Assembly (NCBI RefSeq): GCF_000478825.2
Contig: NZ_CP007542.1
Coordinates: 3,162,001 to 3,226,000, forward strand
Length of the DNA stretch: 64,000 nt
Reading direction: 5' to 3'
From: Synechocystis sp. PCC 6714
GTDB taxonomy: Bacteria; Cyanobacteriota; Cyanobacteriia; Cyanobacteriales; Microcystaceae
Under the pieces are notes generated by a model, which saw only the letters and a list, made by a program, of their open reading frames with translations, did not search any database and was not told the DNA's origin. Positions 8,328 through 16,346 of the stretch are shown piece after piece (within the stretch, counting starts at the first letter, position 1; each line of letters opens with the position of its first letter). The translations under genes were made by a program, and so were the position numbers.

Positions 8328-8488
8328 AAACTGCCCCCCTACACTGAGGCTTAACATGAATTAATTGTAACGAGATGTTAAGAAAGCACCGATTGGGATA
8401 ACCGTCGGAGTTAGTTCGGTTAAGCACCGTTTCCCCAATTCACTTTAGGATCAAAGGCAGTCTGGCTCCTTTCTCTGTTAGCTTGCCC

Positions 8489-9142
8489 ATGTTTTCCCCC
8501 AGCGTTTACTCAGAAATTATCGCTACTCTTTCCCCCAGTGTAAGGTTAGTGGCGGTGACCAAAACCAAGGCGATCACAGACATCGAAGCGGCCTATGGGG
8601 CAGGCATCCGGGATTTTGCCGAAAGTCGTATCCAAGAGGCATTGCCAAAAATTACAGCTCTGACAAACTGCACCGATATTAACTGGCATTTTATTGGCCG
8701 TTTACAGAGTAACAAAGCCCGTAAGGTAGCGGAAAATTTTGCCTATATCCATTCCATTGATAATTTAGAGATCGCCGTCAAGTTGGATCGCATAGCTGGG
8801 GAGTTGAACAAATTTCCCCAGGGATTATTACAAGTCAAGTTACTGCCCGATGAGAATAAATCCGGCTGGACTAAGGAAGAATTAAAACTTGATTTGCCCC
8901 AACTGGAGCTATTACAAAATCTAAAAATTTGTGGCTTAATGACTATTTTGCCCCTCGGTCTTTCCCCTGGCGATCGCCAACAAACTTTCACCGAGTTAAA
9001 AAACTTAGCAAAAGAAATTAATCAAACATCAAACCTATCATTAACAGAATTATCCATGGGCATGTCCGGGGATTATCCCCAAGCCGTTGCCGCTGGAGCC
9101 ACCATGATCCGCCTCGGTACAATTCTCTTTGGCGATCGTTAG
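8489..9142 (+). CDS. YggS/PROSC family PLP homeostasis protein
   Basis: Single-domain pyridoxal-phosphate-binding protein that buffers free PLP. VAVTKTK near residue 22 holds the PLP lysine. FAESRIQEAL corresponds to the family's FGENYVQE region. HFIGRLQSNK matches the hallmark HFIGxLQxNK. MGMSGDYPQAVAAGATMIRLG is the phosphate-binding end. The length (217 residues from the ATG at 8489) is normal. A TTG two codons earlier is open, but the ATG fits better. The last third contains a HIP1 octamer at 8970. A decayed second copy of this gene lies at 15990-16346 in the same direction, so this intact copy forms the left border of a 7-kb island. Confidence 0.92.
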   Translation: MFSPSVYSEIIATLSPSVRLVAVTKTKAITDIEAAYGAGIRDFAESRIQEALPKITALTNCTDINWHFIGRLQSNKARKVAENFAYIHSIDNLEIAVKLDRIAGELNKFPQGLLQVKLLPDENKSGWTKEELKLDLPQLELLQNLKICGLMTILPLGLSPGDRQQTFTELKNLAKEINQTSNLSLTELSMGMSGDYPQAVAAGATMIRLGTILFGDR

Positions 9143-9344: not shown

Positions 9345-11000
9345 ATGGACGACCAAGCAAAGCAAACTGAAACTACGGCAGACGTTCCCCCGTGCTCAGA
9401 TAATCCTGTTGCCCCATCCCTCAATCGTCGTTCCGTGATTCAAATTGCCGCCACCGGTATTTTAGGAGTGGGTTTAGCTCGGCCAGCCATCGCCGCAGAC
9501 ACAACGTCAACTTTACCCGCCCAAGGGGTTGTTCTGGAACCGGGATATAGCCCCAATCAACCGATCCACCGCAAAGTCTCCAATATTGATGACTATCTGT
9601 TTCGTTTACCCAACGGCGATGTGATTGGGGATTATGTTTTGCTATGTCCCCAAAAAATGGGCGGCGGCACCCATGCTCTGGACTTAAAAACAGGCACAGT
9701 GATGGCTTCAATTTGGTACTGGAACTATGGTGATTATTGCCCGATTTCCCACCACATCCAGGCCTTTCCCTCCAGCAATCCCTATGAAGGTTTTGAATTT
9801 ATCAACAGTTGCCAAGGGGGTAAAGATGCGTTGATTTTTGGCATTCCCACGCCGATGACGGAGCCAGCCGAGGGCTTCAATATGTATAAGGTCAAGTACG
9901 ACGGCAATATGATGGTGCTGGAGGATAATGTGGCCGCCAGTACAGGCCTGGGCCTGGGAGTCCACACCACTATTAAGCCGGATGATGCCCAATCCTACTG
10001 GATTACGGATGGACAAAAAGATATTGCGGCCTGGTTTGATCGGGGGAATTCCCAAGTGAAGGTGGCCCTGAAATATGATTGGGTGCCGAACGTGCCGGAG
10101 CTTTCCCAGGCCTGGCGACAAGGGGGAACACTCAAAGTACGACGAATTTATCCCGATGCCAGCACTGGCCTGTTTGATTACCAAGGCACTAAGGGGCTGA
10201 AAATCGACTGGGAAATGGTTCCATCCGGTGAGTTACTGGTGGAAGAAGGACAAATCCCAGGCCAAGATGTCTTAGGGCTGTGCGGGGCAGATGGGACAAT
10301 TTGGCATCCTTCCGGACGCTGGGCCGCCACCTTAATTCGCTTATGCGGGGGCCTGGTGGTGCTGGATGCCGAGAAAAATATGGAACCCGTCACCTTCTGC
10401 TCCTTTAATTCCCAAACCCCGGATCATTACCCGGTCACCAAAATCGATAAAGACACCTGGGAAATCAAAATGGAACAAGTGGGGTCTCCAGGCCATGAAT
10501 CTGGCTTTTCCCCCGATGGCAAGTATTTTTGTTTTATGAACAATGGCCGGGAAAATGCCTTAGGAGTTTTTGACAGTAGCGATCCCGATCCGAAGAAGTG
10601 GAAAAAGTTTGCCGAAATCCGGGATCCCCTCTGGTACGGCCGCTATCCCGAACCGTTCCATATGGTGTTTACTCCCGATGCTAAAAAGCTCTATCTGGTG
10701 ATTCTCTATCCCGCTCCGGCCAAGTCCGGTGTCATGGTCATTGATACGGAAACCTGTAAAATCCGCAAAGAAATTCAAAATATTGCCGCCGATGTGGAAA
10801 GTATTACGATTACCCCGGATGGTCGCTACGTAGTCGGGATTACGGGGGGCTTTCAACGCTATCGCAGCATGGTCTATTTCATTGATACCCGCACCGATGA
10901 GTTAGTGGGGTTTATGCCCAGCCCTGGTGGTCATCATGATCTCAGCCTGGTGCCCCGTTCTGTGGATGAGTTGCGTTGGTCTCGCTCTTGTATGTTGTAG
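9345..11000 (+). CDS. Tat-exported NosZ-like / thiocyanate dehydrogenase-like copper beta-propeller protein
   Basis: A 551-residue periplasmic protein. Residues 26-50 form a twin-arginine signal (LNRRSVIQIA, hydrophobic core, ARPAIA-ADT). The mature part is a beta-propeller with repeated D-G-K/R-Y strands and copper-type histidines spread over the blades: H136-H137 (CPISHHIQAF), H207 (GLGVHTT), H321 (WHPSG), H384 (SPGHESG), H439 (EPFHMVF) and H530-H531 (PGGHHDLS). Lys104 precedes the His pair in CPQKMGGGTH. This pattern is that of the nitrous-oxide-reductase N-terminal propeller. The C-terminal CuA cupredoxin domain of true NosZ is absent, so it fits the shorter thiocyanate-dehydrogenase-like branch better. 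The reaction here is an inference. GC-rich codon use is close to the host's, but no HIP1 site is present and the gene lies in island 1, upstream of an ABC export pair. Confidence 0.65.
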   Translation: MDDQAKQTETTADVPPCSDNPVAPSLNRRSVIQIAATGILGVGLARPAIAADTTSTLPAQGVVLEPGYSPNQPIHRKVSNIDDYLFRLPNGDVIGDYVLLCPQKMGGGTHALDLKTGTVMASIWYWNYGDYCPISHHIQAFPSSNPYEGFEFINSCQGGKDALIFGIPTPMTEPAEGFNMYKVKYDGNMMVLEDNVAASTGLGLGVHTTIKPDDAQSYWITDGQKDIAAWFDRGNSQVKVALKYDWVPNVPELSQAWRQGGTLKVRRIYPDASTGLFDYQGTKGLKIDWEMVPSGELLVEEGQIPGQDVLGLCGADGTIWHPSGRWAATLIRLCGGLVVLDAEKNMEPVTFCSFNSQTPDHYPVTKIDKDTWEIKMEQVGSPGHESGFSPDGKYFCFMNNGRENALGVFDSSDPDPKKWKKFAEIRDPLWYGRYPEPFHMVFTPDAKKLYLVILYPAPAKSGVMVIDTETCKIRKEIQNIAADVESITITPDGRYVVGITGGFQRYRSMVYFIDTRTDELVGFMPSPGGHHDLSLVPRSVDELRWSRSCML

Positions 11001-11130: not shown

Positions 11131-13131
11131 ATGAGCAATGTAAACATAAAGAGAGCTGTCGAAAATATTAGATCCAGCACCACGGTTTACACTCCGATTG
11201 TTGAAGTGATTGTTAATGCAATTCAAGCAATAGAAGAAAAGGGGAACGTTGACGAAGGCATGATAAGAGTTATTTTAAGGCGTTCTCCGCAAATTGAAAT
11301 TGATGGTTCTTTGTCAAGTATTGAAAGCATTTTTGTAATAGATAATGGCATCGGTTTTACGGATAATAATAGAGAGTCATTCGATACTTTGTATAGTGAC
11401 TATAAAATCCGACAGGGTGGAAAAGGCTTTGGAAGATTCACTTGCTTAAAGTACTTTCAATATCTGCGTATAGATAGTATTTACAACGATTCAGGTCTAT
11501 ACAAAAGAAGAGTTTTTTCGATGGGAAAAAAGAATGACATTATTATTAATGAAAATGTGAGTGAGTCACATGAGACTGATTCCCGTACTTCAGTACACTT
11601 AGAGGAAGTAAAAAGAAATTCTCTTGACAAAAAATCAATGACAATTGCTAGAAGTCTTGTTGAAAAACTTTTACCTTACTTCATAACAAAAGATTATTCT
11701 TGTCCTAAAATCATATTGGAAGAAGAAAACGGATCAAGTTCAATTATCCTGAATGACTATATTAATAATGCTTCTGCTGTTATCCAAGAGTTGGAGGTTG
11801 ATGAAAATAATTTTTCTCTAGGTCAAGGGCAGAATGTTTATGATTTTCAGATTCGTATATTCAAAATTTATTCACCTAGAAATAAGGTTAGTAAAATTAG
11901 TCTAGTTGCTGACAAACGAGAAGTTACTGAAACTTCAATTTCTAGCTACATTCCTGAGTTTAGCGATGAATTTTACGATAAAAGAAAAAATGGGACTAAT
12001 GATCAAGAAAGAAATTATATTATCAAGGCATATGTTTTTAGTAATTATCTTGATAACAATGTTTCACTTGAGCGTGGAGGATTTGAATTTCAGAAAGAAA
12101 ATGACATACTATATGGGATATCCCAAGTAGATATCGAATCTAATGCTGCTGCGCTAACTAAGAAATCAGTCATTGATGAAATATCAGTAAGACAAGAAAA
12201 AAAGAAAGAAAGAATTATTTCTTATGTAGAAGAGGAAGCACCTTGGCATAAAAAGTTAGTGAGTAGTATTGACCTTTCTTCGTTTCCATTTAATCCAAGT
12301 AATGAAGAAATTGAAGTGCGACTGCAAAGAGAAAAGTTTCAACGTGAGATTTTAATAAGACATGAAGTAAATTCTTTATTGCAAGAAGAAGATGTCGATA
12401 ACTTTAAAGAAACTATATCAAAAGTCGTTGAGAAGATATCAGAATCTAGCAAAAACGACCTGATTCACTATATTACTTTTCGACGAAAAGTATTGGATCT
12501 CTTTAGGAAAAGTTTGGAAATCAATAATCAAGGAGAGTATTCTTCAGAAGGTGCTCTTCACGATATCATCTTTCCCAAAAAAGAAGATAGTGAGTCTACA
12601 GAATATGATGAACATAATCTATGGATTATTGATGAAAGACTAAACTTCTCTAGTTATGTTTCATCTGATTTGCCGTTGAATAGTGGAAAAACTGAGCGCC
12701 CTGATTTAATTGCTTACGATAGGCGATTTGCATTTCGAGGAGATAACGAGAGCAGTAATCCCGTAACAGTATTTGAGTTTAAAAAGCCTGACAGAGATGA
12801 TTTTGTTAATCCATCTTCAAAAGAAGATCCTATTAAGCAGATAGTCCGTTATATTAATAATATACGAGACGGAAAATTTAAAACACCAAAGGGACAGAAA
12901 ATCAATATCGCTATCAATACACCTTTTTACGGTTATGTAGTGTGTAGTCTCACGCCAAAAGTTGAAAAATGGTTAAAAGATGATCAAGACTTTAAAACCA
13001 TGCCAGATGGAATGGGTTGGTTTGGGTGGCGTACAAATATAAATCTATATATAGAAGTTATGAGTTGGGAGAAGTTATTAAAGGATGCAAATATGCGTAA
13101 TAAGGTATTTTTCCATAAACTAGGTATCTGA
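11131..13131 (+). CDS. GHKL ATPase with C-terminal PD-(D/E)xK-like nuclease domain; defence candidate
   Basis: A 666-residue protein not tied to a named system. The N-terminus is a GHKL (Hsp90/MutL/MORC) ATPase: N-box VEVIVNAIQAIEE with E25 and N29, DNGIGF at 71-76 and the glycine lid GGKGFGRF at 96-103. A middle region of about 350 residues ends in a charged, coiled stretch (LQREKFQREILIRHE and beyond). The C-terminus has ERPDLIAYDRR (D525) followed by VFEFKKP (E549, K551), the spacing and residues of a PD-(D/E)xK nuclease, then QIVRYINNI. Prokaryotic MORC-like GHKL proteins joined to nucleases occur in restriction and defence loci. The gene is very AT-rich compared with both neighbours, which suggests recent separate acquisition. 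It begins 130 bp after the copper protein gene and has no same-strand partner overlapping it. Confidence 0.6.
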   Translation: MSNVNIKRAVENIRSSTTVYTPIVEVIVNAIQAIEEKGNVDEGMIRVILRRSPQIEIDGSLSSIESIFVIDNGIGFTDNNRESFDTLYSDYKIRQGGKGFGRFTCLKYFQYLRIDSIYNDSGLYKRRVFSMGKKNDIIINENVSESHETDSRTSVHLEEVKRNSLDKKSMTIARSLVEKLLPYFITKDYSCPKIILEEENGSSSIILNDYINNASAVIQELEVDENNFSLGQGQNVYDFQIRIFKIYSPRNKVSKISLVADKREVTETSISSYIPEFSDEFYDKRKNGTNDQERNYIIKAYVFSNYLDNNVSLERGGFEFQKENDILYGISQVDIESNAAALTKKSVIDEISVRQEKKKERIISYVEEEAPWHKKLVSSIDLSSFPFNPSNEEIEVRLQREKFQREILIRHEVNSLLQEEDVDNFKETISKVVEKISESSKNDLIHYITFRRKVLDLFRKSLEINNQGEYSSEGALHDIIFPKKEDSESTEYDEHNLWIIDERLNFSSYVSSDLPLNSGKTERPDLIAYDRRFAFRGDNESSNPVTVFEFKKPDRDDFVNPSSKEDPIKQIVRYINNIRDGKFKTPKGQKINIAINTPFYGYVVCSLTPKVEKWLKDDQDFKTMPDGMGWFGWRTNINLYIEVMSWEKLLKDANMRNKVFFHKLGI

Positions 13132-13274: not shown

Positions 13275-14507
13275 ATGAGGAACTGGCGTGACATGAGTAG
13301 AGATTGGATATTTTTGCGATTGGCTGTGCAAAATCTGGGGCGGCGAAAAACTAGAACCCTTTTGTTAATGGGGGCAGTGGCGGTTGCAACGGGTGCTATT
13401 TTTGCTATCACAACCCTGTTATGGGGCGTACAAAGCAGTATGACCGTGGGATTTTCCCGCTTGGGTGCAGATTTGCTCGTGGTTCCCGAGGGGACGTTGG
13501 TGAATATCACCTCTGCTCTCCTGACTGTTGCACCGAATGATGTGACCCTCGACTCCAGTCTGGCTTCTGAAATTGCAGCGATACCCGGCGTGGAACAGGT
13601 AGCCCCTCAATTGATTGTGCGGACCGACCAATCTGGATATCAATGGCCGGGTAACATGAATCATCCAGTGGATTTAATTGCCTTTGACCCAGGACATGAC
13701 TTTACGGTGCAACCCTGGTTAATGGAACAGTTAGCTCGTCCATTCCAGGCCGGGGATGTGATTGTCGGCGGCGGCCATTCTGAAACTCTCAATCAAGAGC
13801 TATACCTCTACGGACAACAATTAACTGTTTACGGACGATTGGAACGCACAGGAGTGGGAACCCATGAACGAGGCCTGTTTGTTGATTTTGAGACCTTGCA
13901 GCATCTCTCAGAAACGAGTCAAAACGGAAATCATTCTCTAGAAATTACACCAGGCCAGTATTCAGGATTATTAGTCAAACTCAAGCCCAGAGCCACATCC
14001 CAACAAGTCCAGTTTGCAATTCTGGCCCAGGCTCCCCAGGTCAAGGTGATTGTCGGTGCAGCCATTTTAACCACTGTTCGGCAAGGGTTGACGGCTTTAT
14101 TGGGCGGGATTTTGCTCTTGATGCTGGGAATGTTGGTGGGTTTAGCATTAATGATTAGTGTGATTTTTAGTGCCATTGTCAGCGAACGGCAACGGGAACT
14201 AGGACTCTTAGCCGCCATCGGAACCAAACCAGGGCCATTGATCGGCCTAGTCTTACTGGAGGCAACTCTGATGACTGGCGGGGGTGGGATGATTGGGACA
14301 GGCCTAGGCGTGGGGTTAATCCGGCTCTCGCAACGGACTTTGATTTATGACTTAAACAGCCTCGGGGTCTCGTTTTTCTGGCCCGGAGCCTGGGCCATGG
14401 CAGCGTTAGGACTGAGTTGCATTCTCGGAGCTGCCTTGCTCGGGGGACTGGGTGCTTTGGTGCCGGCCTGGAAAATGAGTCGCCATGATCCCTATGAATT
14501 GATTTGA
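13275..14507 (+). CDS. FtsX/DevC-like ABC transporter permease
   Basis: A 410-residue membrane subunit of a MacB-type ABC system. It has one N-terminal membrane segment (about residues 28-50, after NLGRRKTRTLLLM), a large extracytoplasmic domain (about 51-265) and three more membrane segments (about 275-300, 325-350, 370-400), with the FtsX signature VSERQRELGLLAAIGTKPG between the second and third. MacB-type systems move proteins, lipoproteins or metals by mechanotransmission. The gene ends 12 bp before its ATPase gene, so the two are translationally linked. ATG 13275 is used; ATG 13293 (MSRDWIFLRLAVQN) has AGGA upstream and may be the true start. GC-rich and HIP1-free, it lies in the same island as the copper propeller protein. 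A role in that protein's maturation is conjecture. Confidence 0.8.
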   Translation: MRNWRDMSRDWIFLRLAVQNLGRRKTRTLLLMGAVAVATGAIFAITTLLWGVQSSMTVGFSRLGADLLVVPEGTLVNITSALLTVAPNDVTLDSSLASEIAAIPGVEQVAPQLIVRTDQSGYQWPGNMNHPVDLIAFDPGHDFTVQPWLMEQLARPFQAGDVIVGGGHSETLNQELYLYGQQLTVYGRLERTGVGTHERGLFVDFETLQHLSETSQNGNHSLEITPGQYSGLLVKLKPRATSQQVQFAILAQAPQVKVIVGAAILTTVRQGLTALLGGILLLMLGMLVGLALMISVIFSAIVSERQRELGLLAAIGTKPGPLIGLVLLEATLMTGGGGMIGTGLGVGLIRLSQRTLIYDLNSLGVSFFWPGAWAMAALGLSCILGAALLGGLGALVPAWKMSRHDPYELI

Positions 14508-14519
14508 TAATATGGCGGC

Positions 14520-15911
14520 ATGAATGCTCCCACCCCGATCTTAAACGCCCAAAACCTGAGTAAAACCTACGCCACGCCCTGGGGAACCGTTGATGCCGTT
14601 AAAGATGTGAGTTTAAGCTTGTTGCCGGGGCAATTTACCGCCATCATTGGTCGCTCGGGGTCAGGGAAGTCGTCGCTGTTGGCCATGCTCAGTGGCTTAA
14701 GTCGGCCGACTCGGGGGCTGGTTGAGATCCATAACACAAATCTCTGGGAACTATCCGCTCACCAACGGGCGGAAATGCGTAACCGCAGCTTTGGGTTTGT
14801 GTTTCAGTTTGCCAGTCTTTTACCCACTCTACGGGCAATTGATAATGTTGCTTTGCCAGCATTACTCGGAACAAAGATCAATTCAACCATGGCCTACGAC
14901 CGAGCCGCATTGTTACTAGAACAGGTTGGCCTGGTGGATCGTTCACAAGCGTATCCAGACCAATTATCGGGGGGAGAACAACGGCGAGTTGCCATTGCCA
15001 GAGCCCTAATTAATGGCCCACCTTTGCTAATGGCTGATGAACCGACCGGCGACCTGGACGAAAAAACAGAACTGGGAATCATTGCCTTACTGATCCATAT
15101 CTGTCGTTCTCAAGCTACTAGCTTGGTTATAGTCACCCATAATCTCAGCCTGACCCAGTATGCCAACCAAGTATTGACGCTACAAGGGGGAGAATTAACA
15201 ACCGTCAAACAAGAAATCAAGGCGGATCAGAAAGTCCATATCCCACCGCCAGAGTTGCCTGAAGTATTACCAACCGCAGTTCCCATATCCCTAGGGACAA
15301 ATCTAGGCATTAATCGACGAAAACTCCTGTGGTTCCTACCGATTGTACCGGTGGCCTGGGGCCTGGATACGGCAGTGGCCTGGTATCAACAGCGAATCAT
15401 GGCCATCAAGAAACAAGCTTTTGCTCAGCTCTACCAGGCTACCCATGGCTATTTATACATTGATATTCAAAACGTTGCCTATGAACCGGATGGCAAATCC
15501 TATCGCCTCACGATGGTGATGCAAAACTTAGATCAAGCTCATCCCCTCTATATCCAAATCTTACCCATGCGAGCCTTTGTCCAAAAAGGCTTTACCTGGG
15601 AAGAAATTCCCACTAATGTCCCAAAAGACTCCAAAAACAGCCTGATCAAACTCACAACCCAAACTACCTTTGAAACTCTTTTTACTCCCAATGTGCCCCA
15701 ACCCACAGAATTAATTCCGGGGTATATGCATGTCCGCATAGATACTGATTTATTGGTCAGTCAGCGGTCTCAACCTGAAGATGACCTGATCAATCGCAGC
15801 GATCCCTATTATTTCTATCTCAAGCCCCATAATGCCGATGATGCTGAGATTTTGCGCCATAGCCACTATCCAGGCCAGCCACCAGTTTATATCTCCATGC
15901 CCCCCCACTAA
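14520..15911 (+). CDS. MacB-type ABC ATPase fused to a membrane-anchored extracytoplasmic domain
   Basis: Residues 1-230 are a standard LolD/MacB-like ATPase: Walker A IGRSGSGKSSLL, signature LSGGEQRRVAIARAL, Walker B LLMADEPTGDL and switch His VTHN. After a linker rich in Pro/Glu there is one hydrophobic segment (about residues 268-287, LLWFLPIVPVAWGLDTAVAW). An additional domain of about 175 residues follows, with beta-strand-like sequence (LYIDIQNVAYEP, PLYIQILPMRAFVQKG, YMHVRIDTDLLV) and a His-rich tail (HNADDAEILRHSH, MPPH). The ordinary ATPase subunit lacks this extension, so this is a fusion. It pairs with the permease 12 bp upstream. The added domain is probably outside the cytoplasm; its function is unknown. 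Confidence 0.8.
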   Translation: MNAPTPILNAQNLSKTYATPWGTVDAVKDVSLSLLPGQFTAIIGRSGSGKSSLLAMLSGLSRPTRGLVEIHNTNLWELSAHQRAEMRNRSFGFVFQFASLLPTLRAIDNVALPALLGTKINSTMAYDRAALLLEQVGLVDRSQAYPDQLSGGEQRRVAIARALINGPPLLMADEPTGDLDEKTELGIIALLIHICRSQATSLVIVTHNLSLTQYANQVLTLQGGELTTVKQEIKADQKVHIPPPELPEVLPTAVPISLGTNLGINRRKLLWFLPIVPVAWGLDTAVAWYQQRIMAIKKQAFAQLYQATHGYLYIDIQNVAYEPDGKSYRLTMVMQNLDQAHPLYIQILPMRAFVQKGFTWEEIPTNVPKDSKNSLIKLTTQTTFETLFTPNVPQPTELIPGYMHVRIDTDLLVSQRSQPEDDLINRSDPYYFYLKPHNADDAEILRHSHYPGQPPVYISMPPH

Positions 15912-15989: not shown

Positions 15990-16346
15990 TAGGATGCGAT
16001 CGCCAACATTAAAGCGGCCTATGGGGCGGGGCTCCGGGATTTTGCGGAAAGCCACATTTAGGAAGCTTTGCCAAAAATTACAGCTCTGACAAACTGCACC
16101 GATATTAGCTGGCATTTTATTGACCGTTTACAGAGTAACAAGATCTGCAAAGTGGTGGAAAATTTTGCTTATATCCATAACAAACTCTCACCCAACTTAA
16201 AAACTTAGCGCAGGCAATCAGTCACCATTCAACTCCACAATCAACAAAGCTATCTATGGGCATTTCCGGGGATTATCCCCAAGCCATTGCCGCTGGAGCC
16301 ACTATGATCCGCCTTGGTACAATTTCCTTTGGCGATCGCCGTTCAA
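15990..16346 (+). pseudogene. Decayed partial copy of yggS
   Basis: This stretch reads like the yggS gene at 8573-9142 at the DNA level, in the same direction. The first part (to about 16175) matches bases from about 8573 (GCGGCCTATGGGGC, CAAAAATTACAGCTCTGAC, CAGAGTAACAAG). The middle of the gene is then missing and the match resumes at the TTAAAAACTTAGC segment through to the end (GGGGATTATCCCCAAGCC). The frame has a stop where the intact gene has Gln (ATTTAGGAAGCT versus ATCCAAGAGGCA) and several substitutions, and the start is absent. It abuts the stop codon of the FIST gene. It marks the right edge of island 1. Confidence 0.88.

Follow-up and report, generated by a model that had tools for sequence, protein, structure and literature searches.

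A thiocyanate dehydrogenase-like copper propeller protein with a replaced active-site His482, and its conserved ABC operon, in Synechocystis sp. PCC 6714

In a 64,000-nucleotide stretch of the Synechocystis sp. PCC 6714 genome (hereafter the window), we found a 551-residue protein that is, by sequence and fold, a clear homologue of the thiocyanate dehydrogenases (TcDH; EC 1.8.2.7). One active-site residue of TcDH, His482, which we take to be a copper ligand, is replaced by glutamate in this protein and by glutamine in the clade that surrounds it. On balance, we lean slightly towards reading the protein as a periplasmic copper oxidoreductase of the TcDH family, belonging to a Gln/Glu-482 variant subfamily whose copper site is altered, which would be served by a dedicated ABC metallation complex and would oxidise thiocyanate or a close analogue. 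The features on which this reading draws are listed in Table 1.

Table 1. Positions in the window of the propeller gene, its active-site codons, the operon and the insert borders
Feature	Position	Strand	Evidence
Intact yggS, left border of the insert	8483..9142	+	Profile match and congener comparison
TcDH-like copper propeller, 551 aa	9345..11000	+	phmmer E to 8.8e-145 against TcDH chains; model pLDDT 81; rmsd 1.2-1.5 Å to TcDH structures
Tat-type signal, twin Arg at residues 28-29	9420..9494	+	Read from sequence; Thioalkalivibrio TcDH also described with a Tat signal (PMC5328954)
Lys104 (TcDH Lys103)	9654..9656	+	Alignment
His136-His137 (TcDH His135-136)	9750..9755	+	Alignment
His207 (TcDH His206)	9963..9965	+	Alignment
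His384 (TcDH His381)	10494..10496	+	Alignment
His439 (TcDH His437)	10659..10661	+	Alignment
Glu485, codon GAA, at the TcDH His482 position; Gln in the clade	10797..10799	+	Alignment and tree
His531 (TcDH His528)	10935..10937	+	Alignment
GHKL-ATPase-like gene between propeller and permease, outside the conserved operon	11131..13131	+	HATPase_c E 4.8e-5, 24.2 bits against a cut-off of 26.4; GC 0.328
FtsX/MacB-type permease, 410 aa, conserved operon	13275..14507	+	Pfam MacB_PCD and FtsX; adjoins the propeller in 60/68 relatives' loci with room
LolD-type ABC ATPase domain, residues 1-230	14520..15209	+	Pfam/NCBIfam profiles, tblastn
TM-anchored domain fused to the ATPase (residues 237-463 of the gene), without a Pfam family; modelled as a beta-sandwich	15228..15911	+	Pfam, alignment, model
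C-terminal Met-Pro-Pro-His tail	15897..15908	+	58/58 relatives; 38/38 aligned rows
Decayed yggS copy with internal deletion, right border	15996..16338	+	81-85% identical to two parts of yggS; matches yggS of congeners G001 and G003

Homology, active site and phylogeny of the propeller protein

The open reading frame, reported earlier in a first-pass annotation, was confirmed in the window. That annotation had likened the product to both nitrous oxide reductase (NosZ) and TcDH, and it is the likeness to TcDH that holds. A phmmer search of solved structures returned nine distinct TcDH chain sequences (E 8.8e-145 to 1.3e-140), aligned over approximately residues 90-549, followed only by hydrazine synthase beta (E 0.0026) and an esterase (E 0.22), 11 sequence matches in total. 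An AlphaFold model (pLDDT 81, pTM 0.82) was overlaid on known structures, as the annotation had proposed, and the 20 top-listed PDB chains in Foldseek were all TcDH (rmsd 1.2-1.5 Å, 46-48% identity), so that the closest solved relatives are copper TcDHs and not the non-copper surface propellers that had been raised as an alternative. NosZ is a distant fold match only (TM 0.36-0.39, 14-15% identity), and membership of that family was rejected because no NosZ occurs among the 11 phmmer matches, the L-NosZ model reaches 20.9 bits against a cut-off of 700, and the protein has no CuA part. The absence of a CuA domain had been noted before; none is seen here either, the TcDH-aligned propeller (residues 90-549) covering the rest of the chain. 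A surface or lactonase propeller was ruled out by the phmmer matches to TcDH together with the Pfam result, no Pfam or NCBIfam model scoring above its cut-off. The claimed Tat signal is also present, with the twin arginine lying within LNRRSVIQIAATGILGVG (residues 26-43). The protein thus resembles the TcDHs of Thioalkalivibrio paradoxus (5f75) and Pelomicrobium methylotrophicum (8q9x) in fold, identity, signal, nearly all active-site residues and downstream ABC genes.

For T. paradoxus TcDH, the Figure 4 legend of PMC6504805 lists 13 active-site residues that coordinate copper or water or shape the cavity. Twelve of these are kept in the window protein, and the lysine ahead of a His pair and the histidines in several blades, to which the annotation had pointed, align with TcDH Lys103, His135-136, His206, His381, His437 and His527-528, the last pair being His530-His531 here. 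The exception is His482, at which Glu485 stands. Since residues 463-500 of the blade that carries Glu485 include no histidine, no choice of alignment can restore His482, and Glu485 is not an alignment slip. Given the low rmsd to TcDH, the active-site histidines would be expected to meet at one point in the model. The window protein further differs from TcDH at Tyr164, which is phenylalanine here and which lies in the electron exit proposed for tvTcDH (PMC9456337).

Position 482 was compared across 73 aligned proteins, comprising the window protein, two solved TcDHs, 63 of the 66 relatives from genome contigs and seven loci from genome searches, with 30-57% identity to the window protein over shared columns. 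One locus with an internal stop (L055) and two partial ones (L048 and L064) were left out of this table and of the tree; L068 is a duplicate of L108, and in the tree L113 and L022 are identical. The residue is histidine in eight proteins (the two solved TcDHs, L047 and the five divergent relatives L103-L107), glutamine in 64 and glutamate in the window protein alone; among the excluded loci, L055 and L048 read glutamine and L064 stops short of the position. The other 12 active-site residues, Lys103, Glu288 and Asp314 included, are invariant in all 73 proteins, and in view of this constancy the replacement of His482 does not look like decay. The same residue has been replaced in the laboratory: by their titles, structure 6sji is a His482Gln mutant of TcDH, and 8yu5 and 8yu6 are His447Gln mutants of pmTcDH. 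That the solvers of these structures chose a His-to-Gln mutation makes a much weaker or different activity plausible where His482 is lost.

A phylogeny, also proposed by the annotation, was built without column 482 and rooted by choice on L103-L107. All glutamine proteins and the window protein form one clade (support 99/90), which under this rooting is sister to the T. paradoxus/Pelomicrobium/L047 group. Within the clade, the window protein groups with Synechococcus CS-1325, Cyanobium, TMED88 and G288 (100/100), on a long branch for which the tool issued a long-branch warning. Two changes at position 482 suffice on this tree, a single one explaining glutamine, and the history of the residue reads as one replacement of histidine by glutamine, probably followed by glutamine to glutamate in the window lineage.

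A conserved operon encoding a Met-Pro-Pro-His-tailed domain

Downstream of the propeller gene lies an operon (13275-15911), overlooked in the first-pass annotation, which consists of a permease gene and an ATPase gene (14520-15911) whose product carries a fused, TM-anchored domain with a Met-Pro-Pro-His end (the MPPH domain). We surveyed 72 propeller loci by tblastn, with room of at least 1.3 kb in 68 and at least 2.9 kb in 65. The permease was found in 60 of the 68, lying no more than 125 bases from the propeller match in 59 and at 460 bases in one, and the full set of permease, ATPase and C-terminal domain was found in 58 of the 65. The eight loci without a permease are four Gln-type loci of Methylococcaceae (L052, L055, L059 and L060) and four divergent His-type loci (L103, L104, L106 and L107). 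Of 58 loci, 44, all with Proteobacteria labels, encode the TM-anchored domain as a gene of its own; in the other 14 it is fused, and these are G288 and loci titled as cyanobacterial, Melainabacteria/Obscuribacterales, planctomycete or TMED88. In all 58 it ends in Met-Pro-Pro-His, and in an alignment of 38 rows 15 columns are invariant, including Tyr166, His168 (domain numbering) and the tail. In its model (pLDDT 87) the domain combines a single long helix with a beta-sandwich. The 50 PDB matches listed for it are all weak; they include ammonia monooxygenase, itself a copper enzyme (TM 0.23-0.24), but no copper chaperone, a fold that had also been considered.

The MPPH domain occurs in the same two of 386 cyanobacterial genomes as the propeller (G000 and G288) and in nine of 17 other TcDH-like genomes, being missing in three of Methylococcaceae (G388, G389 and G391) and in the five genomes of L103-L107. 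The four Methylococcaceae loci named above have Gln482 and no ABC set nearby, and three of their genomes, searched whole, lack the domain, indicating that the set is not strictly needed. Trees of the permease and the propeller over the same 25 loci agree in their main groups, the place of the window permease within its group being poorly supported. The accession AIE75722.1 belongs, we assume, to the series of Synechocystis PCC 6714. It is included in the permease tree of PMC5744179.

Upstream of the propeller in 45 loci, tblastn also matched a membrane J-domain-like gene (L115:7935-8657; DnaJ 24.8 bits, cut-off 27.8), which points the same way as the propeller in five Methylocella/Xanthobacteraceae-type loci and diverges from it in the remaining 40; its product could be a chaperone.

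The TcDH operon of T. thiocyanoxidans is described as thiocyanate-induced and as encoding two ABC permease/ATPase pairs and a hypothetical protein with one TM segment (PMC5744179). In comparison, the window has one ABC pair instead of two, its ATPase is fused to the TM-anchored domain, and copCD, tatA, fccAB and the sigma-54 pair of the TcDH operon are not among the 20 of 67 window ORFs that were run against Pfam. A further case for comparison is L047 (the same gene as L085), which is 71% identical to tvTcDH, has His482, and lies in an operon with one matching permease and two matching ATPases that leave room for a second permease between them. Set against this layout, the window operon resembles a reduced version. 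Beside this true-type TcDH gene are two tandem paralogues of the domain (L047:13256-14553), only the second of which ends in Met-Pro-Pro-His, and beyond them come ORFs judged by eye to be kinase- and regulator-like.

The divergent homologues L103-L107 have all 13 active-site residues, His482 included, and are 31-33% identical to the window protein; unlike the window, the four of these loci with room have no ABC set nearby, and the MPPH domain is missing from all five genomes. They are perhaps of the Guyparkeria/Thiohalobacter kind of PMC6504805, in which Cus-type copper genes are reported in place of the ABC set. Downstream of its TcDH-like gene, L103 (genome G554) carries an additional, short TcDH-like fragment; a fragment of this sort is reported upstream of TcDH in Guyparkeria (PMC6504805), and the two need not correspond.

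Insert borders and distribution of relatives

Segment 9143-15995 is flanked on the left by intact yggS and on the right by a decayed copy that lacks 226 internal bases, and this copy identifies the segment as acquired. In congener G001, yggS is followed 0.74 kb on by a FIST gene, collinear with both flanks of the segment; G001 is the one congener that supports the right flank, the right side of G003 being different and G002 and G004 matching too little. The arrangement fits an insertion by recombination at yggS with later decay of the second copy. Thus, of the "mobile block" in the first-pass annotation, what stands is an acquired insert with a duplicated yggS end; what does not is mobility genes, no integrase or transposase having been found among the 20 of 67 window ORFs (at least 100 aa) run against Pfam. 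The 666-residue GHKL-ATPase-like gene lodged in the operon is AT-rich (GC 0.328, against 0.468 for the window). By tblastn at E 1e-4 it matched none of the relatives' loci, it has no NCBIfam match, and it looks like a later insertion into the operon. A known defence role was considered for this gene, and no PADLOC family was found.

The propeller occurs in two of 386 cyanobacterial genomes (G000 and G288) and in none of the four congeners, in agreement with the earlier remark that it would be unusual in a cyanobacterium. Two further weak, partial cyanobacterial matches (E 8.6e-5 and 7.1e-4) were left uncounted, as were the weak matches of ten genomes in one of the other relative searches and of one genome in another. 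The genome carries two PsaA/PsaB genes, which fits a cyanobacterial host. The statement that such enzymes are known from sulfur oxidisers proved too narrow: the 66 relative loci are mostly from Reyranella and other Alphaproteobacteria, and also from Obscuribacterales, Methylococcaceae and picocyanobacteria. The propeller gene of Methylotetracoccus oryzae (L055/L080) carries one in-frame TGA. Two of 72,556 plasmid records, both of Methylocella tundrae, bear a propeller gene; at locus L115 (NZ_LR536451.1) of this species, the plasmid measures 304 kb and carries the operon in full, with a gene for a cytochrome-c peroxidase about 8 kb away. A scan of viral contigs for a virus-borne propeller gave 24 pattern matches, none of which was confirmed.

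Proposed function and alternative explanations

In the reading that we favour, the propeller would be exported by the Tat system, as its signal suggests. A type VII (FtsX/MacB-like) ABC pair in the inner membrane would carry out ATP-powered work at the periplasmic face, where the TM-anchored domain with its invariant Met-Pro-Pro-His end may present copper to the propeller or gate its loading, by analogy with NosL and NosDFY for NosZ. The substrate of the loaded enzyme would be a small sulfur pseudohalide, with thiocyanate or a near analogue as the most likely choice, and a periplasmic cytochrome c would take up the electrons. NosL and NosDFY serve the copper assembly of NosZ, and what the two systems would share is a copper propeller with a dedicated ABC assembly complex; they differ in the propellers themselves, as described above, and the window permease and the fourth protein are presumably not of Nos kinds. 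The analogy draws in part on PMC6530538.

An ordinary TcDH, in which Gln or Glu takes the place of His482 in function, the three-copper site forms and thiocyanate serves as a nitrogen source via cyanase, would agree with the 12 of 13 residues kept, with an operon type common to true TcDH and with the cyanase gene of the window genome and of G288, through which cyanate could be used. We nevertheless regard it as rather unlikely, since His482 is replaced throughout the sampled clade and most hosts of the 66 loci, from general knowledge, are not thiocyanate oxidisers; cyanase, moreover, was found in seven of 18 TcDH-like genomes, a weak link, and not in eight of the 12 Gln/Glu-type genomes searched (G000, G288 and G387-G396). 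That the clade is instead a separate enzyme with another substrate, for example one whose copper site is binuclear and acts on thiosulfate, sulfide, cyanide, thiourea or O2, deserves serious attention, unlikely though it is: the change at one active-site residue is clade-wide and can be explained by a single event with the other 12 frozen, the host range is broad, and pmTcDH structures titled as containing O2 and the inhibitor thiourea show that the pocket takes other ligands. On the other hand, the listed pocket residues otherwise match TcDH, and no neighbouring gene was seen that points to a given substrate, most neighbours having no annotation. A propeller without catalysis, serving as a copper-binding scaffold or sensor, seems improbable; the loss of one active-site residue and an insert that is acquired and disturbed speak for it, but 12 active-site residues, among them Lys103, Glu288 and Asp314, are kept in 73 of 73 proteins in spite of row identities of only 30-57% to the window protein.

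The role of the ABC complex is a further question. Copper uptake was proposed by Berben et al. for the homologous ABC genes, for which they reported no predicted metal-binding domain (PMC5328954, PMC5744179), and the complex could accordingly be a true transporter, importing thiocyanate or copper or exporting a sulfur product, with no part in maturation. We consider this doubtful, as MacB and FtsEX are described as mechanotransmitters, although MacB also expels antibiotics (PMC5985334, PMC11491553), and as the fused domain pairs a single long helix with a sandwich and carries an invariant Met/His tail. In a bolder reading, unlikely but worth stating, the 64-plus Gln/Glu-482 members might be a distinct copper enzyme family whose site is rebuilt and perhaps binuclear, while the FtsX-type ABC complex encoded alongside and its MPPH-tailed protein might be a new ATP-driven copper-insertion machine common to true TcDH.

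The favoured reading, a TcDH-family copper oxidoreductase with a dedicated metallation complex, is supported by the TcDH homology and fold, the 12 kept residues, the clade-wide change at 482, the operon and the tail, and also by the joint occurrence of domain and propeller in the same two cyanobacterial genomes, the agreement of the permease and propeller trees, the operons of T. thiocyanoxidans and L047, and the cyanase gene of the window genome. Against it count the loss of His482, the Tyr164-to-Phe change, patchy cyanase, Gln-type loci without the ABC set and the weak fold matches of the domain. In view of the two altered residues, the uneven occurrence of cyanase, the Gln-type genomes without the ABC set and the lack of an annotated neighbour that names a substrate, we file the protein as a member of the TcDH superfamily, in the Gln/Glu-482 clade, and not as a proven TcDH; thiocyanate oxidation stays a putative role, because the active-site His482 is glutamate here and glutamine in the surrounding clade.

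Neither the MPPH tail nor the glutamine clade was found described in the available text of the open-licence literature. To our knowledge, TcDH is the sole enzyme that oxidises thiocyanate at a three-copper site, and we know of no established assembly route for that site. A natural clade that carries the residue change of the laboratory mutants, in culturable bacteria and cyanobacteria, offers a direct test of the role of His482. Likewise, with a protein of invariant Met-Pro-Pro-His end accompanying both the enzyme and an FtsX/MacB-type ABC pair, deletions can test how the site is assembled. The clade may also extend thiocyanate or pseudohalide chemistry to phototrophs and methylotrophs.
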